DNA from: Ignavibacteriota bacterium | GTDB lineage: Bacteria > Bacteroidota > Ignavibacteria > UBA10030 | Direction of reading: 5' to 3' | DNA length: 55,291 bases | Assembly (NCBI GenBank): GCA_003142475.1 | Contig: PLMK01000079.1 | Span: forward strand, 44,399-99,689 | Part shown: positions 31,311 through 53,370 of the stretch, piece after piece | Layout of the letters: each line of letters begins with the position of its first letter | Numbering within the stretch: position 1 is the first letter of the stretch | Notes under the pieces: generated by a model | Database searches by the model: none | What the model was told of the DNA's origin: nothing | Seen by the model: the letters and a program-made list of their open reading frames with translations, nothing else | Translations under genes and position numbers: made by a program

Positions 31311-34300
31311 ATGTTTTGTCGTACTAAGACGAATCAAATATTCAATACAATTCTATCTATAGTTGTTTACCTCATCCTCGGTACCTGCTATTTATTTTCA
31401 GCTGAAACTCATTCTAAGAGAACGGAGCCGGGCTTATTGTTTTATCTTTCCGGGGATCAAGGATTCAAAGCGGATTATTCAGCAGGAGGAAAACCGGAGC
31501 CGAACTATTTGGCAAACGTGGATATCATCAAAGATGGGGCGAAAGGCCCTGGCTTTCGATGTGCTGATAAACAACTGATGACTTATTGGGCGCCGGGAAA
31601 TATCTATGCGGAACGGGGGACGTTAAGCTTCTTCTGGAGGTCGCGCGAGCCGGTTGGGAAAACGGAGTTCCCGATTTTTCGGGTCGGGTTTGCCGATCAT
31701 TCTAGCTGGGATATGGTATGGATGCGAATTGATTACAACGGACATGGCTTCGACGCATTCGTCACTGATGTGAATCTTGCTAGAGTTCGTATCTCTTATA
31801 CGATGACTCCTTTTCCCGCTCCGGATAAATGGATCCATCTTGCGTTAGCTTGGGATGAAACGAGTGGAATTCGTTTTTATGTCAATGGTAAATTAGCTGC
31901 GAAGAAAGATAGCGTTGTGGTTCTTTATACGGGTCTGGATCAATTTGGACCTCATTCACGGATCATTGCTCCATCGCAGGTACAAAGTGCATACAACTTT
32001 CAGCGAGGCGGAGATATTGATGAAATTAGAATTTATGATCGCATGCTTTCCGATGCGAATACTACCCGATTAGCAAAAGGTTTATCTGCGGGAGATGTTC
32101 CGAAACTTACTCGAACATTGAAAGATGCGAAGTGGCAGGAGGAATGGAATCTGCGGTACGGATGGAATCGAAAAGGAGATTTGCCTTCTTATCCGCAACA
32201 GCAATTCACACGAGTGAAGAAAGTCGAAATCGAAGATGTCTATGACTTGAAACGGTGGTGGTGGAAAGGAACGGATGGGATTCGGGAAACAACATGGCCG
32301 GGTGTCTACAACCGTTCACGTCTGCCGGGGCGAAATGATTATTTTCAGTTGCCGGATTGGGATTGCTATTCGCTCTCCGGTAAATCTGTAACATTCTTTA
32401 TGCCGAATGAACCGTGGAATCATTTGGAAATATCCGGTTCGGCATTCGGTAAGATGGAAGTCTTTTCATCGGCACAGGATACCATGGGTCAAATATTATT
32501 TCAACGGCCGCAAGGTCAGGAAAGGACTTTCCATGATATTGCAAAATCGATTCAGGGTGAAAGAATTCGCTTTACAAATGTTCAACAAGAAATGCCCATC
32601 GGCGAATTGTCTGCGTATAATGTCGATGCTGGAAAAGAACCAGCCGGGATCCATACTCTTTCATATTCGCTCATAAATAAAACAGACCAGCCCAATGATC
32701 AGTTCCAGCCGTTATTGAAGTTTATTGATGGAAGATACATGCCTGATGAACGAGCAGTGATGGTTGCTGTTCCGCAACAATCAAAACAAGAATCGTTAAA
32801 AAAGAGCACAGAAAAAACATTGCCGTTGGTTCATCTGCTCATTCCGTGTAATTCTCAGTTTGATTCACAAAACACAATATCTGCCGAAAGCTCAGATTCT
32901 TTGTATAACTGGGAGAATATCAACGGGGGATTGGATGGCATCGCAATTGATCTACCAGCTATGAAAATAAAACCGGTGAGCGGCGGATTCATACCATTGA
33001 ATATTCAGATCAAAGATCCAATTTGGCCGATGCGGAATATGCTGGACTTTTCTTTCTCGGTGAAACCGGGCGAAGCGCGTACGCTTTGGTTGGATATACG
33101 GGATAGGATTTTGGCAAAAGGAAAGAACCTCTACGTGACCATTGCGAGCGCCTGCCCTGATTTTAATCCGCAAGTTCTGGATAGTGCACAGGTCCGGTTG
33201 ATCTTCAAACCATGGAAAGAGGCATACCGAGAGCATGTGCAAGATCGGTTTACACAAGTGCGTGACAATTATGCAAATCTTGTTGAAGAACGTCCCGATG
33301 ATCCGCGTCTGAATCTCTATAATCGATTCGAAGCCGATATGTCGGATCTTTTACGTGTAGACCCAAATCATTATCCTGGACAAAACTATTGGTGGGATCT
33401 TGATCATACACATGCAAAACCACTATTTGTTCAACCGATCTGTCCCAAAGGAGTTCCGCTCTGGGCGTTCCGTCAGGTGGAAGACCTGCGGTACTTTAAA
33501 CGATTTGTGCTTTGGTGGATCGATCATCGCCAAATATCCAACGGTGAATTGGGGGGCGGGCTCTCGGATGATGACGATCTGACAAATTGTTGGCCTGGTG
33601 CTGTACTCATGGGATGTGAACCGAACAAGATCATTAACGCTGTCTTGAAAATGTTGGATGCGATTTATGATCAGGGAATGTTCACCAACGGTCTTTCAAC
33701 GATACAAACAGACGGATTACATGCTCATGAAGAAGGGATCGAAGCGCAAACACAAGCAATGCTTGTGGATTATGGAAGTCCGAAACAGATTGAGCGGATG
33801 ATGGCAACTGTGCGTGCATTAGATGAGAAAATCATTCTGAAGAACAAAGCGGGACATCGTCATTTTCGTTCGAGTTATTTTAGCGGTACGAAGATTGCTG
33901 ATGAAGGTGTCTGGGAATGGGCGTTGCAGCCTCACCAATTCCTGCTTCTCCAACCGGTGCTCACGCTGGCTGCATTCAATGGGAATCCTCGCGCACGGCA
34001 GCTGGCGATTGATATGGCAGACGGATTATTAGCGCATGCCCGCAAGGACAAGGATGGAAAACTTGTCCTGGATACAGAGATCAATTTTTCGAGTGATTCT
34101 GCCCGTCCGTCTCCACTCGGATCAAAGGGTGTTCTTGGTATGAGTATGGGATACGGCGGAACGCTGAGCACATCATCTGCAGGAGTACAATTGCTCTGGG
34201 CTGTGTACAAATTTACAGGGGAAAAGAAATATCTTCAGCCATTGCTCGATTCTGGAAAAGAGGTGCTTGGATCGATGAGCGACGATGCCCTCGATATTCT

Positions 34301-37877: not shown

Positions 37878-38331
37878 ATTAGAACTTTCAAAGTGTTTGG
37901 AATGTTTTGAATAATATACGATAAAATTTGAAAGGAGAAAGCAAATGATTTACTGAAGATACGTATTGCATCGTAATTATAAGGAACCCCAAAGTTGTGT
38001 AATTACTGATGATGATATTTGAATAATGAACAACAGCTTCCATATCAAACGTCTCCGGCTTAACTTACGTTTGCTCCGTCCCGACGCAGAAGTCTGCATC
38101 CTGTCTAATTTTGATTGACTAAATATGAATATAACATGATTATAAATTCTGGGATCAGATATAAACTCTATACTTGACACAGAAAATGATTTCATCTATT
38201 TATAGAATCATATTATTGTATATTACAAATTCTAAAATCTGTCTTATCACATTATGTTGCGGTTCACCGAAATACACTCTATTTTTCAGGAAGAAATGCA
38301 AATTTCATAATTTAAATTACAGGCGAATACA
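37878..38331. other. Intergenic region, 454 bases, divergent starts of ychF and the PL9 gene
   Basis: Only short, unconvincing frames are found. Positions 38050-38105 form a more GC-rich island in AT-rich DNA and include the inverted repeat GCAGA-AG-TCTGC (38086-38097); it may be a dispersed repeat or a remnant. A promoter-like pair lies further on (see next entry). Confidence 0.5.
38174..38202 (+). promoter_or_regulatory. Candidate promoter for the PL9 pectate lyase gene
   Basis: TTGACA (38174-38179) is a perfect -35 word, with TATTTA (38197-38202) 17 bases on. The start codon is about 130 bases downstream, leaving a long leader. The -10 match is only fair. Confidence 0.4.
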
Positions 38332-40803
38332 ATGCTTAAAAACAGACAATTCTGTCGATGTTTTGAGAGTTGGAGGGGGAAGATAATTCTTTTTCTCAGC
38401 ATCGGATTATTTCAAGCGACAGTTAGCTATGCCCAAACAGATTCCGTCAAATGGGCGTTAACTTCAGATACCAATGCCGTAGCAATCGGCAATGTGGGCG
38501 GATATACAGAAGTATTTTCAAATTTGGTAATAAGAAGTTATAATGGCGGTGTCTGCCAAAAATCGGCGCCTACAATAGCAGGTGATTGGATTGCGGAGAG
38601 CGCACAAAACGATACTCGTTACTTACAATTTGCTGCATCGCCATCATCTGGATACAATTTTACCGTAACAACAATCGCTTTTACAATCGGATGGGCCGGA
38701 TCAACAGGCCATGTATTTGCTAATGTTTATTATTCGACTGACTCGACGTTTACCGCAAAGACGCAATTAGGTTCGGCAATTATTTTACAGAATTCAACCG
38801 GTGCAGTAAACGGCTCAACATCTCTCAATATTATTGTCAATAGTGGGCAAACATTATATGTGAGGTTTTATCCATGGGATGACCAGACGGCAACGACAAA
38901 ATCTATGGGAATCGCGGGATTTGTTATTGCTGGAACAGCGGCAACTGCGGGATCACCCTCTTTTAGTTTGACACCCAGTTCGATTTCATTTGGTACAATC
39001 AAAGTGAACACAACAAAGGATAATTATTTTACGTTGTCCGGTTCGATCTTAAATCCAGCGAGCGACAGTATTCGTATTACAGCACCACCCAATTTTATAG
39101 TTTCGACAACATTAGGAAGCGGTTATTCATCTCGTCTTGCCCTGCCGTACTCTGATTCAACATTTAATCAGGATACCGTGTTTGTAAGGTTCGCACCCTC
39201 TGTAAATAAAGTATATCGTGATAGCATTTTAGTGTCCGGCGGTGGGACGACAACACATGCTATTTATACAAGTGGCACAGCAGTCGATCCAAGCACAATT
39301 CTTGGGATCTTTGTATCGACGACTGGTAGCGATACTAATGCCGGAACATATTCCGCTCCGTTTTTGACTATTCAGAAAGCAATCTCGATTGCCCAAGCGG
39401 GAGATAGCATTTATGTAAGAGCAGGGACGTATGTTAATAATTCGACGATCAATATTTCTTCGAGTGGGACGGCACTTAATAGGATTGCTCTTTATGCCTA
39501 TCCGCCGGATAGTGCACATCCTTTTCTTGATTTTTCGTCTATGGCATATAGTAGTTCAAATCGTGGAGTGAATCTTGCAGGCAGCTACTGGCATATTAAA
39601 GGACTCGACGTATTTAAAGCTGGCGACAATGGTCTGTTTACGAGCGGTTCGCATAATATCATTGAGTTTTGTGCATTCCATGAGAATAGAGACGGCGGAT
39701 GCCAGATTGGCGGTGGTGCTTCCTATAATCAATTTATTAATTGTGATTCATACTTCAATTACGATTCTGTTACAACCGGCGGCAATGCAGACGGATTTTC
39801 ACCAAAGTTGGATGTCGGCACAGGAAATTATTTTTATGGTTGCAGGGCGTGGCAGAACTCAGATGACGGCTGGGATGGATATTTGCGGCCTTCTGACGAT
39901 GTTAATACAACAATCGAAAATTGCTGGTCATTTATGAATGGCTATTTAAAGGACGGTGTAACGACCTTTTCCAATATGAACGGCAACGGATTTAAAATGG
40001 GTGGTAGTGATGCAAAAAATTTTAGACATAATATGGTTGTGAAAAACTGTCTTTCGTTCCTCAACAAGTCAAAAGGATTCGACCAGAACAGTAATATGGG
40101 ATCAATGACAATTTTAAATTGCACGGCGTATAAAAATGGACTGGGTGATGGAAAACCAAACTTCTATGTTTCTCTTGCTTTGGCCACTGGAAAAGTGTTG
40201 ACTGTAGAAAATTGTATTGCGCTTGGATCTACAGGAGTGACTTTAAGTATTCCAGGTACTTTTGTAACAAATAGCTGGGAAAGTCTATTTACAGGAGCAA
40301 CAGCAGCGGATTTCGTCAGCGTTGATACAACTGGTGTCCGCGGTCCGCGGAAACCTGATGGCAGTTTGCCCGATATTACATTTATGCATTTAGCATCGAA
40401 TAGCCAGTTTGTCGATGCCGGAACAAATGTGGGATTGCCATACATCGGCAGGGCTCCGGATTTGGGATGCTTTGAATCGAGTTTCGTTACCAGTGTTAAA
40501 GATCAAAATAATGCGTTGATTCCCAATGTGTTTACTCTGTACCAAAATTATCCCAATCCATTTAACCCGTCAACAGAAATTAGATATAGTGTTCCGACAT
40601 TCAGTGCTGTAAAGTTGAGTGTATATAACATACTTGGGCAGGAAGTTGCAATCCTCGTGAATGAACAAATGCAGCCTGGTAATTATTCTATTCAATGGAA
40701 TGCGTCTAGGATATCCAGCGGCCTATACTTTACTTGGTTGTCTGCTCAGACAGGGACCGGCCAGTCGTTCTTGCAGACGCGCAAGATGCTTCTAATAAAA
40801 TAA
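38332..40803 (+). CDS. Secreted PL9 pectate lyase with T9SS sorting domain
   Basis: A polysaccharide lyase of family 9 that cuts (homo)galacturonan by beta-elimination. The 823-residue protein has a signal peptide (ends VSYAQ), an N-terminal beta-sandwich region (about 40-205), an Ig-like domain (about 210-315) and a right-handed beta-helix (about 325-690). The helix carries PL9 hallmarks: NADGFSPKLDVGTGNYFYGC, the calcium-site block NSDDGWDGY (about 510) and the proposed base, Lys555, in NGNGFKMGG, then FDQNSNMG. The C-terminus (about 735-823) is a T9SS sorting domain (NYPNPFNPSTEIRYSVP). It is the only pectinase of the cluster with this signal, so it is the likely surface enzyme. Confidence 0.92.
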   Translation: MLKNRQFCRCFESWRGKIILFLSIGLFQATVSYAQTDSVKWALTSDTNAVAIGNVGGYTEVFSNLVIRSYNGGVCQKSAPTIAGDWIAESAQNDTRYLQFAASPSSGYNFTVTTIAFTIGWAGSTGHVFANVYYSTDSTFTAKTQLGSAIILQNSTGAVNGSTSLNIIVNSGQTLYVRFYPWDDQTATTKSMGIAGFVIAGTAATAGSPSFSLTPSSISFGTIKVNTTKDNYFTLSGSILNPASDSIRITAPPNFIVSTTLGSGYSSRLALPYSDSTFNQDTVFVRFAPSVNKVYRDSILVSGGGTTTHAIYTSGTAVDPSTILGIFVSTTGSDTNAGTYSAPFLTIQKAISIAQAGDSIYVRAGTYVNNSTINISSSGTALNRIALYAYPPDSAHPFLDFSSMAYSSSNRGVNLAGSYWHIKGLDVFKAGDNGLFTSGSHNIIEFCAFHENRDGGCQIGGGASYNQFINCDSYFNYDSVTTGGNADGFSPKLDVGTGNYFYGCRAWQNSDDGWDGYLRPSDDVNTTIENCWSFMNGYLKDGVTTFSNMNGNGFKMGGSDAKNFRHNMVVKNCLSFLNKSKGFDQNSNMGSMTILNCTAYKNGLGDGKPNFYVSLALATGKVLTVENCIALGSTGVTLSIPGTFVTNSWESLFTGATAADFVSVDTTGVRGPRKPDGSLPDITFMHLASNSQFVDAGTNVGLPYIGRAPDLGCFESSFVTSVKDQNNALIPNVFTLYQNYPNPFNPSTEIRYSVPTFSAVKLSVYNILGQEVAILVNEQMQPGNYSIQWNASRISSGLYFTWLSAQTGTGQSFLQTRKMLLIK

Positions 40804-40913: not shown

Positions 40914-42314
40914 ATGACGTCTATTTTACGAAGTTTTGTTTTTACTTTTCTCTATTGTCTGTTGGTGAGTTGTTTTGTTACTGCCCAACAAACAGTACCT
41001 ATCCTCCAGGGATGGGATGCATATCCCGCTATATTAAAGCGAATTTCTCCACCCGCATTTCCTCAAAAAGATTTTCTTGTAACAAAATATGGTGCAGTCG
41101 GCGATGATAAAACAGATTGTACGAACGCATTTAAAAAAGCAATCGGTGAATGTAATACATCCGGCGGGGGTAGAGTTGTCGTGCCGAAGGGAATATATCT
41201 TACAGGTGCAATTCATTTGCTGAGCGACGTCAATTTATACATTTCAAAAGATGCAGTTATTAAATTTAGTATTGATCCTAAAAAATACTTGCCGGTTGTG
41301 TACGCGCGGTGGGAAGGCGTAGAGTGCATGAATTATTCTCCATTGATTTATGCATTTGAGCAGGAAAATATCGCGGTTACAGGCAAAGGTATTCTTGACG
41401 GACAAGGGGCTAAGAGCAATTGGTGGAGCTGGAAGGTGAACAAAGATACGAGCAAACCAAACCAAAAAGAAGCGCGCACAAAACTCAACGAGATGGGAGA
41501 GAAGAATGTTCCTATTGCAGAGCGTATCTTTGGAGAAGGCTCGTATCTTCGTCCGAATTTCTTTGAACCATATAAATGTAAAAATGTGTTGGTCGAGGGA
41601 GTAACGTTTAAGAATTCTCCTATGTGGTTTTTGAATCCTGTCCTCTGCAATAATGTATCCATTATTGATGTCGCAACAGAAGGGTTAGGTCCGAACAACG
41701 ATGGATGCGATCCGGAATCGTGCACCGATGTGCTTATTAAAAATTGCAAATTTAATAATGGTGATGATTGTATTGCTATAAAATCAGGACGCAACAACGA
41801 TGGCAGGCGAGTGAATGTTCCTTGTTCAAATATCATTGTTCAAGGATGTCGAATGAAGGCTGGTCATGGCGGAGTGTCGTTGGGGAGCGAATGCTCTGGT
41901 GGCATCCAAAATGTTTATGCTGAAAATGATACTATGGACAGCCCAAATCTCGATCGCATGCTTCGTATTAAAACAAATTCTATCCGTGGTGGAGTGGTGG
42001 AAAATATCTATTTTAGGAACATCAAAGTTGGACAAGTTACAGATGCCGTTATGCAAATTGATTTTTATTATGAAGAAGGCGATGTAGGAAGTTTTACACC
42101 TCTTGTGCGGAATGTCGAATTAAAGAATATTGAAAGTAATAAGAGCATGTTCGCAATTTGGATTCGTAGTTATGACAGATCACCCGTGACAAATGTGACT
42201 ATCGAAAACTGTACATTCAATAATGTTGCTAACGCTGACGTTCTGGAGAATGTTAGGAATTTAAGTATGGTTGGCGTTAAAATGTTTAAGGCAGTAAAAT
42301 CAGCAGTTAGATAA
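40914..42314 (+). CDS. GH28 polygalacturonase
   Basis: A glycoside hydrolase of family 28 that cleaves galacturonan by inversion. The 466-residue protein has a signal peptide (cut after VTAQ) and a beta-helix with all GH28 signatures: NNDGCDPESC, NGDDCIAIKSG (catalytic Asp pair), GHGGVSLGSE and RIKTN. A segment of about 60 residues (170-225) between early helix turns resembles the inserts seen in exo-acting bacterial members. It has no T9SS signal, so a periplasmic place is likely. It is the first gene of the run GH28-GH105-CE12-GH43-GH28. Confidence 0.93.
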   Translation: MTSILRSFVFTFLYCLLVSCFVTAQQTVPILQGWDAYPAILKRISPPAFPQKDFLVTKYGAVGDDKTDCTNAFKKAIGECNTSGGGRVVVPKGIYLTGAIHLLSDVNLYISKDAVIKFSIDPKKYLPVVYARWEGVECMNYSPLIYAFEQENIAVTGKGILDGQGAKSNWWSWKVNKDTSKPNQKEARTKLNEMGEKNVPIAERIFGEGSYLRPNFFEPYKCKNVLVEGVTFKNSPMWFLNPVLCNNVSIIDVATEGLGPNNDGCDPESCTDVLIKNCKFNNGDDCIAIKSGRNNDGRRVNVPCSNIIVQGCRMKAGHGGVSLGSECSGGIQNVYAENDTMDSPNLDRMLRIKTNSIRGGVVENIYFRNIKVGQVTDAVMQIDFYYEEGDVGSFTPLVRNVELKNIESNKSMFAIWIRSYDRSPVTNVTIENCTFNNVANADVLENVRNLSMVGVKMFKAVKSAVR

Positions 42315-42375: not shown

Positions 42376-43569
42376 ATGGAAAAAAATCTATTCCAAAACA
42401 TCTTCGGACTTACTGCATTATGTCTGTTCATTTTCTTTAGTGGTTTTGCCGGTGGCAAAGACCAAACTCCTTGGTCGGCGCGTATTGTCCATTCTCTTAT
42501 AGTACGAAATGCGGATACTATTCAATATCTTGGAGTTGCGAAAAGTGCTCGATGGGATTATGAGCGTGGCGTCGTGTTGCAGGGTATCTATCAACTTTAT
42601 CTTGCTACTCACAAAAAAGAATATCTAGACTACATTAAAAAACATATCGACTTGTACGTGCAGGAAGATGGAGCGATTCGTACATATGATTATTTATCGT
42701 TCAATCTTGATAATATTGCTACGGGCAGAAATCTACTTGCCCTGTATAAAGCAACAAAAGATAAGAAATATAAAATAGCGGCCGATACATTACGCAAACA
42801 ATTGGCACATCATCCACGAACCAACGAAGGCGGTTTCTGGCATAAAAAGATTTATCCATATCAGATGTGGTTAGACGGTATCTATATGGCGGAACCCTTC
42901 TATGCTCAATATGCACAGATGTTCCATGAACCGGCTGACTTTAACGATATTGTTAATCAGTTTATTTTCATTGAACGACATACACGCGATCCGAAAACCG
43001 AATTATTATATCATGCTTGGGATGAAAGCAAGCAGATGCCTTGGGCAGATAAGCAAACAGGCTGTTCTCCGCATTTTTGGGGTCGCGCGATTGGATGGTA
43101 TGTTTGGGCATTAGTGGATGTTTTAGATTATCTGCCTAAGGATTATGCCAAAAGAAAAGAGTTGATCGCAATTTTAAAGCGAGTTTCCAATGCATTGCTT
43201 AAATTCCGGGAGCCACAATCGAAACTCTGGTATCAGATCGTTGATCAAGGAAGTCGAGCCGGTAATTATCTGGAGTCTTCCGCCTCCTGCATGTTCGTAT
43301 ATGCATTTGCTAAGGGCGCAAATAAGGGGTATCTGGATAAAAAATATTTGACAGCTGCAAGAGAATCTTTCAAGGGTATTCTTGATTCTATGATGACGGT
43401 GGACGATAAAGGATTGATCAGCCTTCATCATGCTTGCCAAGCTGCTGGTTTAGGCGGCAATCCATACCGTGACGGAAGTTATGAATACTATATAAGTGAA
43501 AAGCAGCGTACAGATGACCTCAAAGCTATAGGCCCATTCATTCTGGCTGCATTGGAATTAAAAAAATAG
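42376..43569 (+). CDS. GH105 unsaturated rhamnogalacturonyl/glucuronyl hydrolase
   Basis: A 397-residue protein with signal peptide (FAGG end) and an alpha/alpha six-hairpin barrel. The block YQMWLDGIYMAEPFYAQ carries the catalytic aspartate seen in YteR/RhiN enzymes, and HFWGRAIGWYVWALVDVL is a further family mark. These enzymes hydrate the double bond of unsaturated galacturonyl ends left by lyases, so it acts after PL9 or rhamnogalacturonan lyases. It lies 61 bases after the GH28 gene. Confidence 0.93.
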   Translation: MEKNLFQNIFGLTALCLFIFFSGFAGGKDQTPWSARIVHSLIVRNADTIQYLGVAKSARWDYERGVVLQGIYQLYLATHKKEYLDYIKKHIDLYVQEDGAIRTYDYLSFNLDNIATGRNLLALYKATKDKKYKIAADTLRKQLAHHPRTNEGGFWHKKIYPYQMWLDGIYMAEPFYAQYAQMFHEPADFNDIVNQFIFIERHTRDPKTELLYHAWDESKQMPWADKQTGCSPHFWGRAIGWYVWALVDVLDYLPKDYAKRKELIAILKRVSNALLKFREPQSKLWYQIVDQGSRAGNYLESSASCMFVYAFAKGANKGYLDKKYLTAARESFKGILDSMMTVDDKGLISLHHACQAAGLGGNPYRDGSYEYYISEKQRTDDLKAIGPFILAALELKK

Positions 43570-43615
43570 GTCAATTCTTTTTTCACTATTTCAGAAAAAA
43601 CAATTGAAGGTACGT

Positions 43616-45133
43616 ATGCAAAATACATGGATTAGAAAATTATCAATAGTTTCCCTCGTGCTCGTTATTCTTGTTCTTTTCGTTGCATGGTTCCCGAAGA
43701 CGCAGTCACGTATCTTTCTCATCGGTGATTCCACCATGGCGGATAAACCTCTTGTTGATAATCCGGAACATGGCTGGGGACAAATGCTGCCGTTGTTCTT
43801 TACAAAAAATGTACAGATCCATAATCATGCCGTGAACGGCCGCAGTACAAAAAGTTTTATTGCTGAAGGACGATGGGCGGCTGTTTATAACCAACTTCAG
43901 CCGGGTGACTATGTCTTTATTCAATTCGGCCATAATGATGCGAAGAAAGAAGATACAACGCGTTTTGCGGCACCGCGTCCTGATTATAAAAACAATCTTG
44001 AAAAATTTGTTCGAGATGCCCGCGAAAAGAAAGCAGTCCCGATTCTTTTAACTCCGGTGACGCGGCGAGATTTTGATTCGTCTGGTAAATATGTTGGAAC
44101 ACATGGCGATTATCCAGCCGTTATGAAAGAGGTTGCAGAGGAAGAAAACGTTCCCCTTATCGATATGTTTGAAAAATCAAAGAAGTTGGTAAAATTACTT
44201 GGGGATGAACCATCGAAATCGTTATATCTTAATGGTGTTAAGAACGAATTTCGTAATTGGAATAAAAAACGAGACAATACACATTTTACAAGACCGGGCG
44301 CTATCCAGATGGCGTTGTTAGCCGTTGAGGGTATAAAAAAATTACACCTGCAGCTGGAAAACGAACTCGTCTCTATTCAATCCATAAATCTTGTAGGTTC
44401 TGGAAAAGTTGTCGGACTTGACTATTTCTTTAATAATGAATGGCGTATGAAAAAAGATAGTGTGCGGGAACGCTGGCATTACACGTGGGAAGATACTACG
44501 AACAGTGGATTCTCTCTATTAGGAAGAAGCATCGATCTTCTTGGTGCCGATCTTGATACTCTTCAATGTGCTCCGACAGATTCCGTGTTGAACCGATGCA
44601 GTGTGTACATCATTGTCGATCCAGATACACCGGCTGAGACCGATAAGCCAAATTATATGTCGGAGGATGCAATCAATGTTATTGTCCCGTGGGTTGAACG
44701 TGGTGGTGTGTTGGTTTTGATGGAGAATGATAAAGGGAATGCAGAGTTTGAACATTTCAATAAATTGGCAGAGCGTTTCGGTATTCACTTTAATGAAGAT
44801 TCTTACCACAAAGTGATCGGCAAAGAATATGAAACTGGTAAGAATGATAATTTACCTGCACATCCTATATTCAAAAATGTGAACCAAATTTTTACAAAAG
44901 AAGTGTGTTCTCTGCGAATTGAAAAACCTGCGGAGCCGATCCTAATGGAAAATGGCCTCATTCTCATGGCGTCAGCACGTGTAGGCAAAGGGTTGGTGTT
45001 TGCGGTTGGTGATCCCTGGTTGTACAATGAATATATGGATTCACGCAAACTTCCTGCTGAATACGAAAACGCTAAAGCAGGTAAGAATTTATTTGGATGG
45101 CTTCTCAAGAATGCTTGTTCAACAGTACGGTGA
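43616..45133 (+). CDS. CE12 rhamnogalacturonan acetylesterase fused to a GATase-like domain
   Basis: The first 250 residues form an SGNH esterase of family CE12: block I FLIGDSTMA (nucleophile Ser), AVNGRSTKSF, block III FGHNDAKKED and block V DNTHFTRPG (Asp-His). It would remove acetyl groups from pectin backbones. An N-terminal hydrophobic segment (10-25) serves as signal or anchor. A second part (about 255-505) looks like a DUF4350/GATase1-like Rossmann domain (CSVYIIVDPDTP, VPWVERGGVLVLMEND, GKGLVFAVGDPWLYNEY), with no visible active site. The ATG at 43616 is chosen over a TTG at 43604 because GAAGG lies at 43606-43610. The gene is seven bases ahead of the GH43 gene. Confidence 0.87.
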   Translation: MQNTWIRKLSIVSLVLVILVLFVAWFPKTQSRIFLIGDSTMADKPLVDNPEHGWGQMLPLFFTKNVQIHNHAVNGRSTKSFIAEGRWAAVYNQLQPGDYVFIQFGHNDAKKEDTTRFAAPRPDYKNNLEKFVRDAREKKAVPILLTPVTRRDFDSSGKYVGTHGDYPAVMKEVAEEENVPLIDMFEKSKKLVKLLGDEPSKSLYLNGVKNEFRNWNKKRDNTHFTRPGAIQMALLAVEGIKKLHLQLENELVSIQSINLVGSGKVVGLDYFFNNEWRMKKDSVRERWHYTWEDTTNSGFSLLGRSIDLLGADLDTLQCAPTDSVLNRCSVYIIVDPDTPAETDKPNYMSEDAINVIVPWVERGGVLVLMENDKGNAEFEHFNKLAERFGIHFNEDSYHKVIGKEYETGKNDNLPAHPIFKNVNQIFTKEVCSLRIEKPAEPILMENGLILMASARVGKGLVFAVGDPWLYNEYMDSRKLPAEYENAKAGKNLFGWLLKNACSTVR

Positions 45134-45140
45134 TTACGTA

Positions 45141-46838
45141 ATGCAGGACTCTAAATCGAGACGGAGTTGTTCCGGTTCGATATGGCAGCAAGATCAACAT
45201 AGGGTGATATTCTGGATAATGGCAGGATTCTATTTTCTTGCTGCCACGTTCAACTGCTTTTCACAAGTCGTATCAGCAACGACTTCCTCAAATGTAAACA
45301 CACCTGGCTGGGTGGCTGATCGCGGGGATGGCACCTATACAAATCCAATCATTTTCGCCGATTATTCTGATCCTGATGTCATTCGTGTGGATGATGATTT
45401 CTACATGGTTTCATCAAGTTTCAATTGCACACCGGTAATGCCTGTACTGCACTCGAAGGATTTGGTGAATTGGACAATCATCGGTCATGTTTCCGAGAAT
45501 TTACCGTCACCTGTTTTTAACCAACCGCAGCATGGCAAAGGGTGCTGGGCACCGAGCTTACGGTTTCATAATGGCGAGTTCTATGTTTATTATGGCGATC
45601 CGGATTTTGGTATCTACATGTCGAAGACAAAAAATCCATCTGGTCTGTGGGAACCACTTCTTCTCGTGAAACAAGCTTTAGGATGGATCGATCCATGTCC
45701 TCTGTGGGATGATGATGGTAATGCATATCTAGTGCATGCATGGGCAAAGAGCAGAGTCGGTTTTAACAGCGTCTTACATGTAAATCGGATGAGTGCTGAC
45801 GGGAAACATATATTTGATGACAGCGTAATGGTGTTCGACGGACACATTAATCATCCGACGATGGAAGGGCCAAAATTTTATAAACGGAACAACTATTACT
45901 ATATCTTTGCACCGGTTGGTGGAGTTGGTCCAGGGTGGCAAACTGTACTGCGTTCCAAGAATGTCTATGGTCCTTATGAAGATAAAATTGTTTTACATCA
46001 AGGATCGACCACAATCAACGGACCACATCAAGGTGGTTGGGTAGAAACGCAAACAGGAGAATCATGGTTTCTGCATTTTCAGGATCGTGGTGCTTTTGGG
46101 CGCATCATCCATCTCCAACCAATGTGGTGGAAAAATGATTGGCCGATGATGGGAATCAATCAAGATTTCTCTGGTTGCGGAGAGCCTGTGATGACTTGGA
46201 AAAAGCCAAATGTAGGAAAAGTATTTCCGATAGAAATTCCTCAGACCAGCGATGAATTCGATTCGACAAAACTTGGTTTGCAGTGGCAATGGCATGCCAA
46301 TCATCTCGATAGTTGGTATTCCTTACGTGAGAAACCAGGAACACTTCGTCTGAGATCCATTGAAATGCCGGAGCGCAGTAAAAATTTATGGATGGTTTCT
46401 AATTTGTTGCTTCAAAAAATGCCGGCACCGAGATTTTTAGCGACCACTGAGCTGGAATTGCATCCTACTAATATCGGTGAAAGAACCGGAATTGTAATCT
46501 TCGGATTCGATTATTCTTTTCTCGCCCTGGAAAACAGGGCAGATGGAGTTCATCTTATTAATGGTATTTGTAAAGAGGCAGATAAAGGAATTGGCGAGAC
46601 TATTCAAGCGGATATTCCTTATAGTCAACAGACAGTATTTCTATGTGTGAATGTCGATACAGGTGCAGTATGCCGATTCAGTTATAGTGCGGATGGAAAG
46701 AATTTTACTAATATTGGAACTGAATTCACAGCACGCGAGGGTCGGTGGATCAGTGCAAAAGTTGGATTATTTGCTATTTCGCCAAATGGAAGTACATCAT
46801 TAGGTTTTGCTGATTATAATTGGTTTAGAATAAAGTAA
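45141..46838 (+). CDS. GH43 glycosidase (arabinofuranosidase/xylosidase group)
   Basis: A five-bladed propeller hydrolase of family 43. The three acidic residues are visible in FADYSDPDVIRV (base), GWIDPCPLWDDDG (pKa modulator) and HPTMEGPKFYK (acid). After the propeller (about 40-340) comes a beta-sandwich (about 360-565; DEFDSTKLGLQWQW, GTLRLRS) as in GH43 xylosidases with a C2 domain. The frame is open back to 45000, but the ATG at 45141 is preferred: it is seven bases after the CE12 stop, follows a GGTGA site, and yields a signal peptide (FNCFSQ end); product 565 residues. In a pectin cluster, arabinan or arabinogalactan side chains are the likely substrate, though the subfamily is not certain. 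Confidence 0.88.
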   Translation: MQDSKSRRSCSGSIWQQDQHRVIFWIMAGFYFLAATFNCFSQVVSATTSSNVNTPGWVADRGDGTYTNPIIFADYSDPDVIRVDDDFYMVSSSFNCTPVMPVLHSKDLVNWTIIGHVSENLPSPVFNQPQHGKGCWAPSLRFHNGEFYVYYGDPDFGIYMSKTKNPSGLWEPLLLVKQALGWIDPCPLWDDDGNAYLVHAWAKSRVGFNSVLHVNRMSADGKHIFDDSVMVFDGHINHPTMEGPKFYKRNNYYYIFAPVGGVGPGWQTVLRSKNVYGPYEDKIVLHQGSTTINGPHQGGWVETQTGESWFLHFQDRGAFGRIIHLQPMWWKNDWPMMGINQDFSGCGEPVMTWKKPNVGKVFPIEIPQTSDEFDSTKLGLQWQWHANHLDSWYSLREKPGTLRLRSIEMPERSKNLWMVSNLLLQKMPAPRFLATTELELHPTNIGERTGIVIFGFDYSFLALENRADGVHLINGICKEADKGIGETIQADIPYSQQTVFLCVNVDTGAVCRFSYSADGKNFTNIGTEFTAREGRWISAKVGLFAISPNGSTSLGFADYNWFRIK

Positions 46839-46957: not shown

Positions 46958-48643
46958 ATGGAAAAGCTAATGTCACGAAAAAATTATATGATTCTATTCG
47001 TCTTCCTGTTTGTGATGAGAGGTATCGCGGGAGACCAAAAACAATTGAAGGATTATCTTTCCAATCTCCCATTTACAATGCCGGTGTTGGTTGAGCCGCA
47101 ATTTCCCCCACACAATGTCAATATTGTCGAATTTGGTGCCGTTCCAGATGGGCATACATTGAATACAAAGGTTTTTGCTGATGCCATTGCTGCCTGTGCG
47201 AAAGCTGGTGGTGGAACCGTTGTTGTTCCAGCTGGCACTTGGCTTACCGGACCGATCAGACTTGAAAGCAATATCAATCTTCATGTGGAAAAGGGAGCGC
47301 TTGTTCAGTTCAGCAAAAATATCGATGACTATCCTTTCATCGAAAATCCGGGAGGTAGACAAAACAGATATGGAAGAGCTCAACTTATCTCTGCCTACAA
47401 GGCAAAGAATATTGCCATCACCGGTGGTGGGATTTTTAACGGGACCGGAGAAATTTGGCGTTATGTATTAAGGGAGGATCTTACAGAGTTACAATGGAAA
47501 GCTCTTGTTGCATCTGGTGGTATTGTGTCTGCTAATGGTGAAGAGTGGTGGCCATCGGAGAAAGCGATGGGAGCCGAAATTTTTTTTAAAGAAAGTGCAA
47601 ATGCAAAGAAAATGCTCACAAAGGAAGATTACGAATCGACAAAAGAATACCTTCGACCTAATCTCGTTAACTTTATCGAGTGTACTGATATTCTGCTAGA
47701 TGGTCCGACCTTTGAGAACTCGCCTCGGTACCATATTATTCCTCAGCAATGTGAAAATTTGATCATCCGCAATGTGAATGTGCTCGCGCCGGTTTATGGA
47801 AAAAATACAGATGCTATCGATCCTTCGGCATGCCGCAACGTTGTGATTTATAATTGTATGATTGATGTCGGTGATGATGGAATATGTCTAAAACCCGGAA
47901 CAATAGCTTTTAGTCAGAAACCGGGTCCAGCCTGTGAGAATATTGTTGTTGCGGATTGTGTGGTCTATCATGCGCATGGAGGTTTCGTTATTGGGAGCGA
48001 AAGCAACGGCGGTGCACGCAATGTATCCGTCCATAACTGCGTTTTTATCGGCACAGATGTAGGACTTCGTTTCAAATCGGCACGCGGAAGGGGCGGAGTG
48101 ATTGAAAAAATATTTATTGATGGAATCCAGATGCGTGAGATTGTAACCGATGCGATTCTCTTTGATATGTACTATTCCGGCGGTGCCCCGGATGTGGAAG
48201 CCAGGAAAGATCTGACCATTCGAAAGGCAGAGCCCGTAACGGACAGGACACCGCAGTTCAAGGACTTCTTCGTCAAGAACATCGTTTGCAACGGCGCAGA
48301 CCGTGCAGTGGTCATTAACGGTCTTCCTGAATTGTCTATCAAGAACATGATCCTTGACAATGTTTCCATCACATCAAAACGGGGTGCGTTTATTGCTGAT
48401 GCAGATGGGGTTCAGTTGAATGGATGCAGGATCGTTCCGCAATCGGGAAATGTCTTCAATATTATTCAAAGCCGCAATGTGACCATTAAAGATGGAATCT
48501 ATCCTGCGCCAGCCGATCTCTTCCTAAAAGTCTATGGCGAGAGATCGGATAATATCCGCTTGATTGGTGTCGACCTCAAGCAAGTAAAAAAAGAGATTGA
48601 ACTTGAGAAGAATGTAAAAGCAGATGCAGTGAGGCAAGAGTAA
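46958..48643 (+). CDS. Second GH28 polygalacturonase
   Basis: A 561-residue family 28 enzyme with signal peptide (MRGIAG end) and beta-helix. Signatures: NTDAIDPSAC, VGDDGICLKPG (Asp pair), HAHGGFVIGSE and GLRFKSARGRGG. Compared with the first GH28 it has GLRFK in place of RIK and a different insert (about 165-235), so a different pectin linkage, such as exo-action or rhamnogalacturonan, is possible. ATGs at 46958 and 46970 are both usable. It ends the pectinase run, 110 bases before the sensor kinase gene. Confidence 0.92.
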   Translation: MEKLMSRKNYMILFVFLFVMRGIAGDQKQLKDYLSNLPFTMPVLVEPQFPPHNVNIVEFGAVPDGHTLNTKVFADAIAACAKAGGGTVVVPAGTWLTGPIRLESNINLHVEKGALVQFSKNIDDYPFIENPGGRQNRYGRAQLISAYKAKNIAITGGGIFNGTGEIWRYVLREDLTELQWKALVASGGIVSANGEEWWPSEKAMGAEIFFKESANAKKMLTKEDYESTKEYLRPNLVNFIECTDILLDGPTFENSPRYHIIPQQCENLIIRNVNVLAPVYGKNTDAIDPSACRNVVIYNCMIDVGDDGICLKPGTIAFSQKPGPACENIVVADCVVYHAHGGFVIGSESNGGARNVSVHNCVFIGTDVGLRFKSARGRGGVIEKIFIDGIQMREIVTDAILFDMYYSGGAPDVEARKDLTIRKAEPVTDRTPQFKDFFVKNIVCNGADRAVVINGLPELSIKNMILDNVSITSKRGAFIADADGVQLNGCRIVPQSGNVFNIIQSRNVTIKDGIYPAPADLFLKVYGERSDNIRLIGVDLKQVKKEIELEKNVKADAVRQE

Positions 48644-48753: not shown

Positions 48754-49902
48754 ATGATGAAGAATTTCCGGATATCGCTCCCAAGTGTGATCAAAAAGTA
48801 TTCCTTTGACGGATATCTTTCCAGTCTTCTCTTCTTCGTTTTGACAGGGATCGGTATTGCACGCGCGCTCCAGCATATGTATGTTGTTGATGTCTATCAA
48901 CGTATACAATACACGCTTTGGTGGCATATTCCATTCAATCTCTTTATGTGGTGGAATTGGTTCCTGATCATCCCGGTTATGTATTGGATCACCATCCGTC
49001 TGCCATTGGAGAACATAAAACTCTTGCATTGGCTCATTGTCTGTTTTCTTCTTCCAATCTTTATTGTAGTCATCCGTCAAGCCCTGGCATCGTTTATTAC
49101 AGTATTAGTATTAACGGACAAGACGGATTTTCAAACGCTTTTCGATTGGCGGTTGTTCAATAATCCATGGATTTGGTTGGACTTCATTGTGTACTTTGCA
49201 ATCTTAATCGGTATCAGAGTGGTGGAATATCAGCACAAGAATAAATTGAGTGAGTTGAGGTTCACACAATTGCAGGCGCAATTAGCTCAATCGCACTTGA
49301 ATGCACTAAAGAGCCAACTCCATCCCCATTTCTTATTCAACACGCTCAATACCATCTCCACCCTGATCCTGAAAGCGGACGATTCCGAAGCAGAACGTAT
49401 GCTTTCGCTATTGAATAATTTTCTGAAGACCACGTTATTCCAGAGTGAGCGCCAGGAAATCACTTTGGAAGAAGAGCTACGATTTGTTAAGGATTATTTG
49501 GAGATCGAAAAAGTTCGTTTCAGCGATAAGTTGGAAGTGAAGGAGGACGTAGCCAGAGAAACGTTGCAGGCGCAGGTTCCCAATCTTCTTTTGCAACCTA
49601 TTATTGAAAACGCGATCTACCATGGAATTGCTCCTAAAACATCCAACGGCATTATTCGGATCAGCGTTAAAAAAGAGGGTGGACAATTATTGATCAGTGT
49701 AGAAGATAATGGTCCTGGTCTGACGTTGACGAAAAAGCGAAAATTTAAAGAAGGTGTTGGGTTGAAAATCACAAAGGAACGCTTAGATCATCTCTTTGGA
49801 ACTGATCATCTGTTTGAGTTAGAGAATCTGGTGTCCGGAGGAGTGAAGGTCACTATCAGTATCCCTTTTACCCATAGTGTGCCAATGGTAGTTTTGTCAT
49901 GA
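48754..49902 (+). CDS. LytS-like sensor histidine kinase (His_kinase, PF06580)
   Basis: A 382-residue membrane kinase. Four hydrophobic segments lie in the first 165 residues, with almost no periplasmic part, so the signal is probably sensed in the membrane or through a partner. A short coiled coil leads to the phosphoacceptor block LKSQLHPHFLFNTLNTIS, followed by the ATPase domain with N box LLLQPIIENAIYHG, G1 box VEDNGPG and the later GGVKVTISIPF. All key residues are present. Its stop overlaps the start of the next, related gene by four bases (ATGA), and a LytTR regulator follows. Confidence 0.9.
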   Translation: MMKNFRISLPSVIKKYSFDGYLSSLLFFVLTGIGIARALQHMYVVDVYQRIQYTLWWHIPFNLFMWWNWFLIIPVMYWITIRLPLENIKLLHWLIVCFLLPIFIVVIRQALASFITVLVLTDKTDFQTLFDWRLFNNPWIWLDFIVYFAILIGIRVVEYQHKNKLSELRFTQLQAQLAQSHLNALKSQLHPHFLFNTLNTISTLILKADDSEAERMLSLLNNFLKTTLFQSERQEITLEEELRFVKDYLEIEKVRFSDKLEVKEDVARETLQAQVPNLLLQPIIENAIYHGIAPKTSNGIIRISVKKEGGQLLISVEDNGPGLTLTKKRKFKEGVGLKITKERLDHLFGTDHLFELENLVSGGVKVTISIPFTHSVPMVVLS

Positions 49903-51056
49903 CAATATCTTTCCGAAAATATATTTCCTCTTCTAGAACGCATCTAGATATTAACGTATTTGTTCCTTTATTTTCGATCCTTACGCTGATCGCACTCGTG
50001 ATTTCCTTCCAGGCGTACTATAGTATCCAATCGGGAACGGCTTCGCTGCCAATCTTATTCCGAATTCTACTTTCCAAACTCGTCTACTGTTGGTATTTTT
50101 CTATCCTGGCATTGGTCGTTCAGTGGCACTCGAAGCGAACCCAGTTTACAAGAAAGACAGTCGTCCGGTGGTCCCTGATCCACTTAACGACACTAGTGGT
50201 TTCGTTCTTCATTCATGAATCTCTCTCGCTCGGTGCCGATACACTGATTTGGGGAACAAAGTTGAAAGCAACATTATTGTATGTTCTTTTTAATAACCCA
50301 TCAGTCTGGATAGAGACCTTGGTGTATATTCTTTTCCTCTTGAGTTTCTCGTTGATGGAATACAGGAGAATGAGCCAAGAGAATGAGATTAGATGCTCGC
50401 AGTTGGAAGTGCAGATCATTCGGTCGAAACTGCAGGAGATACGCAGCAAAATACAACCAACATTTCTCTTTAACACTTTACAAACAATATTGGAATTAAT
50501 TCGCACACATAGAAATAAAGATGCGAACCATATTCTTTCATTACTCAGTGATTTCTTGCGAACGACCGTATACGATAATGAACGCGATGAAATTACCCTG
50601 GAAGAAGAGATGCGGTTTCTGAATCAATATCTAGAGATCGAAAAAGTGCGGTCGAGTTATACATTCAGTGTCCATGAAGATATCGAGCGATGTGTCTCAA
50701 ATGCAGTGGTACCGAATTTTATTCTGCAACCCATTGTGGAAGAATTAGTCTACCGGAACTTTGGACAGAATACTACCCAGCATGAGATTGTTATCAGAGC
50801 CTATAAAGCGGAAGAACAACTTGAAGTGATGATAGAAGATCATGGAATAGAAACCACAGGGAGCCTAATTGGTAAAGAAGAAAAGGGGATTGTTCTAGAT
50901 ATTACCAAAGAGCGATTATTGCATCTCTATGGAGATCAACAAAACCTGACAGTGCAATTAACTCGTGAGGGAGGGGTTCTCGTGAAGATTCGAGTACCGT
51001 TCAGAGAAATGAATATCGAATCAGAAGGAACCCTAGTAGTGGAGAGTGCTTTGTGA
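49899..51056 (+). CDS. LytS-like pseudokinase paralogue
   Basis: A 385-residue protein with the same plan as its neighbour: four hydrophobic segments, coiled coil, H-box-like region and ATPase-like domain. The active residues are gone: the H-box reads KIQPTFLFNTLQ, so Thr replaces the phosphoacceptor His; the N box reads LQPIVEELVYRN, with Glu in place of the key Asn; and the G1 box reads IEDHGIET instead of DNGPG. Structural parts such as LEEEMRFLNQYLEIEKVR and GGVLVKIRVPF are kept, so the fold is under selection. A role as regulator or heterodimer partner of the intact kinase is inferred. It overlaps both the kinase gene before it and the regulator gene after it by four bases. Confidence 0.87.
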   Translation: MTISFRKYISSSRTHLDINVFVPLFSILTLIALVISFQAYYSIQSGTASLPILFRILLSKLVYCWYFSILALVVQWHSKRTQFTRKTVVRWSLIHLTTLVVSFFIHESLSLGADTLIWGTKLKATLLYVLFNNPSVWIETLVYILFLLSFSLMEYRRMSQENEIRCSQLEVQIIRSKLQEIRSKIQPTFLFNTLQTILELIRTHRNKDANHILSLLSDFLRTTVYDNERDEITLEEEMRFLNQYLEIEKVRSSYTFSVHEDIERCVSNAVVPNFILQPIVEELVYRNFGQNTTQHEIVIRAYKAEEQLEVMIEDHGIETTGSLIGKEEKGIVLDITKERLLHLYGDQQNLTVQLTREGGVLVKIRVPFREMNIESEGTLVVESAL

Positions 51057-51862
51057 AAACACGAACACTGATTGTCGATGATGAACCTCATGCGAGAGAA
51101 GGCATCAGGATTCGCCTAAAAGAATTCAAGAACATACAAATTGTGGGCGAATGTTCTTCAGGCATTGAAGCAGTGAAATCTATCAATGCTCTTAGTCCTG
51201 ATTTGTTGTTCCTTGATATTCAAATGCCTGAGATGAATGGCTTTGAAGTATTAAAGAAAATCACTGTTACTCCTTTGCCTGTTATAATATTTGTAACTGC
51301 TTTTGATAAGTATGCCATTAAAGCATTTGAATGCCACGCTGTGGATTATTTATTGAAACCTATCAGAGAAGATCGTTTTAAAAATGCTCTCCAAGTTGCG
51401 CTTTCGGAAATTAGCCATCGTAACCTTGAACTCTATGCAAATAAATTGAAATCTGTAGTGAATGATTATCTGGATATAACCGAAGGAATTACGGAAGGAT
51501 ACCATGCGCCAACCGGTCAGATTAAATATCTTGACCGCCTTATGATCAAATCCAAAGATCACGTTTCAGTGATTCCTGTCCTTGAGATCGAGTGGATAGA
51601 ATCTGCCGGTGATTATGTCTACGTTCATTCAAATTCACAAAAACATATTTTTAGGGAAACTCTTACTGCACTTGAACAAAGGATGGACCCGCAAAAATTT
51701 ATTCGTATTCATCGTTCTACTATCGTCAATATTGAAAAGATAAAAGCACTTCGACTTAATGAACATAGTGATTTTGATGTTTACCTGCTTAGCGGAGTAA
51801 AGTTAAAGCTGAGCAGAACCTATCGTCCTCACTTTGAAAAAATTACGGGAAACCCTCTCTAA
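51053..51862 (+). CDS. LytTR-family response regulator
   Basis: A 269-residue regulator with a receiver domain (about 3-120; acidic D9/D10, phosphoacceptor D55 in LLFLDIQMPEMNG, Lys in YLLKPI) and a C-terminal LytTR DNA-binding domain (about 160-265; LMIKSKDHVSVIPVLEIEWIE, FIRIHRSTIVNIEKI). It starts with GTG overlapping the pseudokinase stop. Its place between pectinase genes and the pectin methylesterase gene suggests that it controls this locus. Confidence 0.93.
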   Translation: MKTRTLIVDDEPHAREGIRIRLKEFKNIQIVGECSSGIEAVKSINALSPDLLFLDIQMPEMNGFEVLKKITVTPLPVIIFVTAFDKYAIKAFECHAVDYLLKPIREDRFKNALQVALSEISHRNLELYANKLKSVVNDYLDITEGITEGYHAPTGQIKYLDRLMIKSKDHVSVIPVLEIEWIESAGDYVYVHSNSQKHIFRETLTALEQRMDPQKFIRIHRSTIVNIEKIKALRLNEHSDFDVYLLSGVKLKLSRTYRPHFEKITGNPL

Positions 51863-51870
51863 TTTCATCT

Positions 51871-51899
51871 CGTTTTATAAGTATCTTTCTCCGTTTTAT
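51871..51899 (+). promoter_or_regulatory. Direct repeat pair, candidate LytTR binding site
   Basis: CGTTTTAT occurs at 51871-51878 and 51892-51899, exactly 21 bases apart (two helix turns), the spacing used by LytTR-type regulators such as AgrA. It lies just after the regulator gene and about 205 bases before the CE8 start. Confidence 0.4.
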
Positions 51900-52002
51900 C
51901 GCAGTATTCCGTAATTGGTCTCATTTCTGTTTATCCAATAATAATAAATCAGGAATTTGTTCTCCGTAGATATATAAGGAACTTTGTGTTATGTTTATCT
52001 AT

Positions 52003-52104: not shown

Positions 52105-53370
52105 ATGAAAAACTTTATCGTTCTTACTGTCATCATAGTTGTATATATATTTTCTTCGTTAGTATTGGCAAAGGATAAGGCGAACATAATTGTCGCACAA
52201 GATGGAAGTGGGCAATTCTTAAAAATTCAAGATGCAATTGACGCCATACCGGTAGACAACAAACAAAACGTCATTATTCTGATCCGCAATGGTGTGTACC
52301 ACGAAAAGTTATTCATCATGAAAAGCTTCATTACTCTTGTTGGCGAAGACCGGGACAGCACACGCATTATCTATGCAGAATTACGCAAGAATATAAACAA
52401 AACATGGATGGATATGAGGCGCGATTGGGGAACAGCGGTTGTGAATATTGATTCGTCTGTCACGGATATTACGTTGGCAAATCTGACCGTCCATAATAAT
52501 TACGGTTCGTTACATAATACGGAAGACCATCAGTTTGCAGTTCGTGGTGGAGGAACGCGCGTGCTTATTTTAAATTGCAACGTCATAGCCGATGGTGGGG
52601 ATACACTCAGTCTTTGGAATAAAAAGAATGGTATGTATTATCATGCCAATTGTTATTTTGAAGGATACGTTGATTATGTCTGTCCGCGCGGGTGGTGCTA
52701 TATTACCGATAGTAAATTCTTTGGGCACAACCTGAACGCAAGCATCTGGCACGATGGTGATGCAGATAAGAATCAAAAATTTGTTATTCGTTATTCACTA
52801 TTCGATGGCGTACAGGGATTTCCCCTGGGGCGCAATCATCGAGACGGACAAATATTTTTACTTGATTGCACATTCTCAAAGGCGATGGCAGATACGCCTA
52901 TTTACTGGCCTGAAGGTAGTCAAACACAGTGGCAATGGGGCGATCGACATTATTATTATAACTGCCATAGAGATGGTGGCGATTATGCTTGGTTCAAAGA
53001 TAATTTAGAAAAAGCCGAAACTGCTCCGAAAGAAAATGAGATCACTGCAAAATGGACATTCGATGGCAAATGGGATCCGGAAGAAACGATGCCGTCGGTT
53101 CTGCCGATGGTGTTTTTGCCGCGGCCGAGAGATGGTGCCAAGCAAATTCAAGATAAATCGATCACACTAAAATGGGTGCCGGCAAGAAATGCAATCTCGC
53201 ATAAGGTGTATTTTGGAAACACGTCAACTCCAAAGTTTAAGAAAAATCAAAAATGCAATTCGTATACACCCGGCAAATTAAAATCGAAGACGACCTATTA
53301 CTGGCGTATTGATGAGGTCACTGAAACAGGTACATTGCGCGGCCCTCTCTGGCATTTTACAACAACATAG
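52105..53370 (+). CDS. CE8 pectinesterase with C-terminal Fn3-like domain
   Basis: A pectin methylesterase of family CE8, which frees methanol and leaves de-esterified galacturonan. The 421-residue protein has a signal peptide (SSLVLA end), a beta-helix beginning IIVAQDGSGQFLKIQDAIDAI, and the family's active residues in variant form: the Gln of HQFAVRGGG, the Asp of ADGGDTLSLW, the Asp of GYVDYVCPRG and the Arg of FPLGRNHRDG. The last 80 residues (PRPRDGAKQIQDKSITLKWVP... to WHFTTT) form a fibronectin III-like module. No T9SS signal is present. Confidence 0.88.
   Translation: MKNFIVLTVIIVVYIFSSLVLAKDKANIIVAQDGSGQFLKIQDAIDAIPVDNKQNVIILIRNGVYHEKLFIMKSFITLVGEDRDSTRIIYAELRKNINKTWMDMRRDWGTAVVNIDSSVTDITLANLTVHNNYGSLHNTEDHQFAVRGGGTRVLILNCNVIADGGDTLSLWNKKNGMYYHANCYFEGYVDYVCPRGWCYITDSKFFGHNLNASIWHDGDADKNQKFVIRYSLFDGVQGFPLGRNHRDGQIFLLDCTFSKAMADTPIYWPEGSQTQWQWGDRHYYYNCHRDGGDYAWFKDNLEKAETAPKENEITAKWTFDGKWDPEETMPSVLPMVFLPRPRDGAKQIQDKSITLKWVPARNAISHKVYFGNTSTPKFKKNQKCNSYTPGKLKSKTTYYWRIDEVTETGTLRGPLWHFTTT

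Follow-up and report, generated by a model that had tools for sequence, protein, structure and literature searches.

Why would a membrane sensor that has lost the active site of a histidine kinase be kept between an intact kinase of the same type and a response regulator gene, next to a cluster of pectin genes? This question is raised by a stretch of 55,291 nucleotides of an Ignavibacteriota bacterium (assembly GCA_003142475.1, contig PLMK01000079.1, positions 44,399 to 99,689 of the forward strand), which was analysed as a whole and is hereafter called the window. Three consecutive genes of the window, designated A, B and R, overlap by four bases at both junctions, in the sequence ATGA at 49899-49902 (A/B) and GTGA at 51053-51056 (B/R). 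Their coordinates, reading frames and overlaps had been given in a first-pass annotation made from the sequence, and they proved to be exact on re-checking (Table 1).

Table 1. Genes A, B and R, the surrounding pectin genes and the two copies of the cis element in the window.
Feature	Position	Strand	Basis
Second copy of the cis element, approximately 220 bp upstream of the first pectin-cluster gene	38053..38111	+	profile 39.9 bits
First pectin-cluster gene, Pel9A-like beta-helix protein carrying a secretion tail	38332..40803	+	PF22842, PF18962
GH28 family enzyme	40914..42314	+	PF00295
GH88 family enzyme	42376..43569	+	PF07470
GDSL-type esterase	43604..45133	+	PF13472
GH43 family enzyme, start codon uncertain	45234..46838	+	PF04616, PF17851
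GH28 family enzyme, gene preceding A	46958..48643	+	PF00295
Gene A, LytS-type histidine kinase	48754..49902	+	PF06580, HATPase_c, motifs, hydropathy
Gene B, LytS-type pseudokinase, plan as in A	49899..51056	+	PF06580, motifs, 15 homologous B genes
Gene R, response regulator	51053..51862	+	Response_reg 88 bits, LytTR 85.3 bits
Cis element copy between R (directly before it) and the pectinesterase gene, with a direct repeat at 21-bp spacing	51868..51926	+	profile 30.4 bits
Pectinesterase, probable target, next gene after R	52105..53370	+	PF01095

The comparison with PF06580 proposed in the first-pass annotation places both sensors above the curated cut-off of this His_kinase family (A 92.6 bits and B 71.2 bits, cut-off 25.2), and both count as homologues of the family. 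An HATPase_c domain match is obtained for A (40.1 bits) and none for B, and the receiver and LytTR domains of R both exceed their cut-offs. A and B are 34% identical across 367 aligned columns, and hydropathy predicts four membrane segments joined by short loops in each protein. Because these loops are short, neither protein seems to have a folded outside domain, and a signal would presumably be perceived by way of another protein or else within or close to the membrane. The AlphaFold models of A and B (mean pLDDT 60.4 and 57.2) are poor and are given little weight, and the fold of B cannot be judged from them. In a sequence comparison of the B profile with the PDB, the kinase domain of GanS alone was matched (E = 4.3e-18), and it is also the top fold match of the weak B model. 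The genome of the window contains two other LytS genes, each of which adjoins a LytTR gene and keeps the His.

According to its sequence, A is an intact kinase, and in its motifs PHFLFN, PIIENA, EDNGPG and EGVGLKITKERL the His that accepts the phosphate, the Asn of the N-box and the ATP lid are all present. The corresponding motifs of B are PTFLFN, PIVEEL, EDHGIE and KGIVLDITKERL. In B, Thr stands in place of the phospho-accepting His and Glu in place of the N-box Asn, the GxGL box has Val for its second Gly (GIVL versus GVGL), and the lid reads DHGIE instead of DNGPG, in which Asn, Pro and the last Gly (now Glu) are altered. Thus, B has neither the His, nor the N-box Asn, nor the complete lid of a working kinase. 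The first-pass annotation had claimed that three active-site features were lost from B. The losses of the His and the N-box Asn stand, whereas that of the DNGPG box is only partial, and to call it lost is slightly too strong because Asp and the first Gly are still present.

The distribution of this arrangement was determined by several searches. Those based on B covered 198 relatives with B itself and then, with a B profile, 98 genomes of the order, 391 of the class and 395 of the phylum. The profile searches undercount B because the most eroded copies (genomes G228 and G285) were missed; this gap was closed by searching the 391 genomes, a sample of the class, with an A profile and scoring up to five candidates per genome. 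There were 16 matches of at least 347 bits, followed by a gap down to 285 bits, and each of the 16 loci, all of which were read, has A, B and R. The 16 triplets belong to 14 genomes, namely G000 (the genome of the window), G001, G005 (three triplets), G006, G097, G103, G122, G132, G148, G200, G228, G285, G293 and G385. The search of related genomes that had been suggested therefore yielded 15 triplets beyond the original one, which rules out a lone mutant of a single genome, and no A without B was found among the 16 A-type genes of the 391 genomes. In the phylum search, with four candidates scored in each of the 395 genomes, all matches above 208 bits came from the class. The best matches from other classes reached 207.6 bits, and those that were read (L090-L097 and three more) proved to be ordinary LytS kinases. 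Within the genus of the original genome, the triplet is missing from three of the five other sampled members (G002, G003 and G004). An exact 4-bp overlap is found at 18 of the 32 A/B and B/R junctions, with start codons taken as first-codon guesses. Viral contigs scanned with the B profile gave no relative, and carriage of B by phages was rejected on this ground. Different tandem LytS pairs precede a LytTR-type regulator gene in G004 (L115 6203-8420) and G008 (L114 6535-8900); the second partner in G004 has Asp at the N-box Asn position, and the first partner in G008 carries an in-frame stop. These pairs were rejected as cases of the same kind because none of their four proteins has lost the His.

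The His is missing from all 16 B proteins, the frames of which are all open, and its site is occupied by Gln in eight, by Thr, Ser and Glu in two each, and by Ala and Asp in one each. All 16 A proteins have both the His and the N-box Asn, with one lid glycine altered in three of them (G293, G228 and G285). Moreover, the His is kept in 42 of the 42 related LytS kinases read outside the triplets, a set made up of 39 kinases and three that were initially dropped by a motif filter, and representing the best-scoring loci rather than every LytS gene of the genomes concerned. Set against these 42, the loss of the His from 16 of 16 B proteins is beyond chance. The Asn at the N-box position is retained in four B proteins (G006, G293, G385 and G285), and a DAGAG lid is retained in one (G005b). 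The B proteins of G293 and G385 are heavily eroded, those of G228 and G285 end at 317 aa with a shortened ATP-binding domain, and that of G097, with 276 aa, has lost this domain in frame. None of the 16 loci has a second gene that is intact or broken at random. The statement of the first-pass annotation that the reading frame of B is kept holds in all 16 loci, but its statement that the fold is kept is not supported as worded, since only the membrane and dimerisation regions are kept, and the ATP-binding domain erodes, is shortened or is deleted. The motif WHIPFN in the membrane part occurs in 16 of 16 A proteins, in none of the 16 B proteins and in none of the 39 other kinases. Together with the presence of B beside every A, this restriction suggests that the membrane parts of the two proteins took different jobs.

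In a tree of 68 rows, the 14 B rows group in a single clade (100/99) and the A rows in a second one (100/98); these clades are joined to each other, apart from the 39 other kinases (100/99). The tree was midpoint-rooted for drawing only and does not contain the eroded B proteins of G228 and G285; the G228 row, which was counted as a single gene, is an A, and its B was recognised later. The B clade spans several families of the class, and the simplest reading would be one old loss followed by drift at the freed sites. Across seven pairs, pN/pS ranges from 0.25 to 0.54 in B and from 0.14 to 0.35 in A, and B evolves faster than A in every pair. These values are raw proportions rather than true dN/dS, because whole-gene pS ranges from 0.44 to 1.00 and is mostly near saturation. 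In all seven pairs, conservation within B is higher in the DHp region than in the ATP-binding region; however, the same is true of A, and this contrast alone is no proof of lost constraint. When B is compared with A, identity falls more strongly in the ATP-binding region than in the DHp region in six pairs, and by the same amount in one. Because the pairs are non-independent (the original locus was used three times) and their synonymous sites are near saturation, we consider the pN/pS pattern to be supporting evidence only.

The link of this control unit to pectin, also put forward in the first-pass annotation, is supported by the neighbouring genes and by a shared DNA element. A pectinesterase gene directly follows R in 12 of the 16 triplets (the original one, G005a, G001, G103, G122, G132, G148, G200, G293, G385, G228 and G285). 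Because the 14 triplet genomes contain only 29 pectinesterase genes above the cut-off, from one to four each, this linkage is far from chance, although the 12 loci are not independent, since the cassette is inherited whole. In the other four loci, R is followed by a TonB receptor gene in G005b, no pectinesterase was found on the triplet contigs of G005c and G006, and the contig of G097 stops 368 bases past R. The three triplets of G005 lie on contigs C236, C116 and C54; just one adjoins a pectinesterase, and the one that precedes the TonB receptor gene indicates that the cassette may be re-used for other targets. On the other side of the triplet, a serine hydrolase gene lies directly before A in G293 (L112 10347-11375), G385 (L113 1353-2384), G228 (L119 8573-9559) and G285 (L120 7447-8430); those of L112 and L119 match PF00144 (Beta-lactamase), and those of L113 and L120 resemble them by sequence. 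The window also encodes a 1583-aa protein (31311-36062) with an odd mix of Laminin_G_3, CARDB and two glyoxalase-type stretches.

The shared element is a block of approximately 60 bp that contains a direct repeat at a spacing of 21 bp. It is common to 12 loci, lies between R and the pectinesterase gene and starts less than 20 bp past the stop codon of R. When a profile built without the window's own copy was run over both strands of the window, the sites at 38053 and 51868 scored 39.9 and 30.4 bits and the third place only 13.9 bits. With all three rows of the genus removed from the profile, the same two pectin sites were again on top (34.1 and 21.8 bits, third place 15.2). A possible further, weaker copy at 38241-38284, downstream of the strong copy at 38053 and before the pectin cluster begins, scores 13.5 bits and is within the noise. 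A sequence-only model made from 13 sites was then run across the 14 triplet genomes. In the original genome, its top three matches are the two pectin sites and an unlinked site outside the training set, C46:7720 (22.6 bits, E = 2.9e-4; next match 14.5 bits), which lies just before the other pectinesterase gene of this genome in surroundings that also hold a tagaturonate epimerase and a PfkB-type kinase. The match between R and the TonB receptor gene of G005b (L039 5792-5849) is weak (14.7 bits) and within the noise. The model is not perfectly specific, because matches outside the training set also occur inside an unrelated coding gene in G285 (18.9 bits) and G228 (18.5 bits); an ill-fitting match of 16.0 bits in G103 likewise lies within a coding gene. 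A pair of repeats separated by two turns of the helix would suit binding by a LytTR dimer, and the element is a probable binding site of R.

The gene order, the residue losses, the single clade, the conservation pattern, the pectinesterase linkage and the shared element were all computed directly. On balance, we favor the reading that A, B and R constitute a three-part pectin switch, in which A and B form a mixed sensor, A alone is phosphorylated and R activates the pectin genes. A and B would be an old duplicate pair of LytS-type membrane sensors with four segments, of which B probably turned pseudokinase once, before the family spread, and was presumably retained because of the parts that lie in the membrane and form the dimerisation helices (DHp). 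Through these parts, A and B most likely form a mixed dimer or a larger complex. With the His missing from B and its ATP site incomplete, only A could carry phosphate, and in an A-B dimer A would have to phosphorylate its own His in cis. B would act as a co-sensor that sets the activity of A through membrane and helix contacts, and we infer that the signal is derived from pectin. Phosphorylated R would then bind the direct repeat with its 21-bp spacing, both downstream of the R gene and in front of the pectin cluster, and turn on the pectinesterase and other pectin genes. More tentatively, the pair may represent a natural and obligate sensor with one active site, in which B senses or gates, A alone binds ATP and carries the phosphate in cis so that there is one working kinase per dimer, and B is shedding its ATP domain, which is gone in G097, toward the membrane and helix parts.

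At first glance, B might be taken for a functionless duplicate in decay, given that its active-site residues are gone, its ATP-binding domain is eroding and it evolves faster than A in seven of seven pairs. However, all 16 frames are open, pN/pS is below 1 in every pair, no A was found without B, and the B clade extends across several families; decay is thus very improbable, and we reject it. The same observations, a single clade with open frames, pN/pS below 1 and a B with every A found, argue that B is kept by selection, as the first-pass annotation had supposed, and this inactive copy probably contributes to the function of the sensor. It is also conceivable, but unlikely in our opinion, that the cis element belongs to another regulator of the pectin genes and that R has its targets elsewhere. 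Two triplets, those of G005c and G006, have no recognisable element, and a LacI-type regulator is present in the locus of G001. Against this, the element follows R in 12 loci and was recovered after R in G097 (20.5 bits), which was not used for training, and no site above 15.2 bits was found in 14 genomes without the triplet, although six of them have a pectinesterase above the cut-off.

The role of B within the sensor allows further alternatives. A dead kinase could be kept as a phosphatase that mainly dephosphorylates R, and such a split of roles after duplication is plausible. The position four places after the His is important for phosphatase action in other kinase families, and the Asn found there is kept in the B of the window. 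However, this Asn is kept in only eight of the 16 B proteins (the original one, G005a, G001, G148, G005b, G097, G200 and G293), and the B of G097 is without the entire ATP domain, which makes a phosphatase quite improbable. A real, if lesser, possibility is that B acts as a brake that poisons active A homodimers by drawing A into inactive mixed dimers and is released by a pectin signal, in the style of RetS and GacS. If phosphorylation occurs in trans, a mixed dimer would indeed be dead, since B is without the His and the lid, and the reported action of RetS on GacS provides a precedent (PMC12675982, PMC9491836). However, the sequences do not separate a brake from an activator, and FasC and DivL, the two published pseudokinases considered here for which the sign of the effect is stated, are both reported to support activity. 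By analogy with these two, we regard B as slightly more likely to be a required activator than a brake, and we retain the three-part pectin switch with a mixed A-B sensor as our reading.

The few bacterial pseudo-histidine kinases compared here are isolated cases, whereas B is a conserved natural family of one clade, which in the loci seen always occurs with a live partner and offers stages of ATP-domain loss, predicted targets and a readable DNA element. Therefore, three small genes and a single promoter suffice for a direct test of the role of a dead histidine kinase. A-B-R is also a candidate for the switch that controls pectinesterase genes in this class, which has been little studied.

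Among known systems, single LytS/LytTR systems share the kinase family and the regulator type of the triplet but have no dead partner, and GanS, a PF06580 kinase like A and B, has none either. DivL of Caulobacter is, like B, a pseudo-histidine kinase working on a live kinase; however, it represents a different kinase class and partner arrangement and is not known to be an adjacent duplicate with its own regulator. DivL is reported to act on the live kinase CckA (PMC4211667, PMC5361649, PMC9491836), and its function requires neither the ATPase domain nor the phosphorylation residue (PMC9491836). RetS of Pseudomonas is described as inhibiting GacS by hetero-oligomers, although both can also homodimerise (PMC12675982, PMC9491836). 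The likeness to the proposed A-B pair is that one histidine-kinase-like protein controls another, whereas RetS and GacS are hybrid kinases with other regulators. In ChrS of C. glutamicum, loss of the ATP domain reportedly produced a pseudokinase, which increases output by way of a kinase paralogous to it (PMC9491836). This ChrS variant is a laboratory mutant with an intact but unused His, in contrast to the natural and conserved B family.

Two adjacent sensor-kinase-like genes with a response regulator gene, as in A-B-R, are also found in FasBCA of group A Streptococcus, the kinases of which belong to another, AgrC-like class. In a 2025 report, FasBCA is described as a three-component system of two sensor-kinase-like membrane proteins and a ComE-like response regulator. 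Two-hybrid assays showed FasB and FasC to interact as heterodimers, and FasC can do without its ATP domain but needs its His H246 for activity; the authors propose that FasC is a pseudokinase (PMC12675982). FasC thus keeps a His, whereas all 16 B proteins have lost it. At the sequence level, the B of G097 lacks its ATP domain. FasBCA serves virulence regulation, and A-B-R adjoins pectinesterase genes, belongs to PF06580 and sheds the ATP-binding domain of its pseudokinase. Our search of open-access journal papers found no description of the A-B-R family. The first-pass annotation had regarded the kinase/pseudokinase pair as a new variation on two-component sensing. However, a triplet of kinase, pseudokinase and response regulator has already been published as FasBCA (PMC12675982), and what distinguishes A-B-R from it is the loss of the His, the shedding of the ATP domain, the PF06580 family and the pectin setting.
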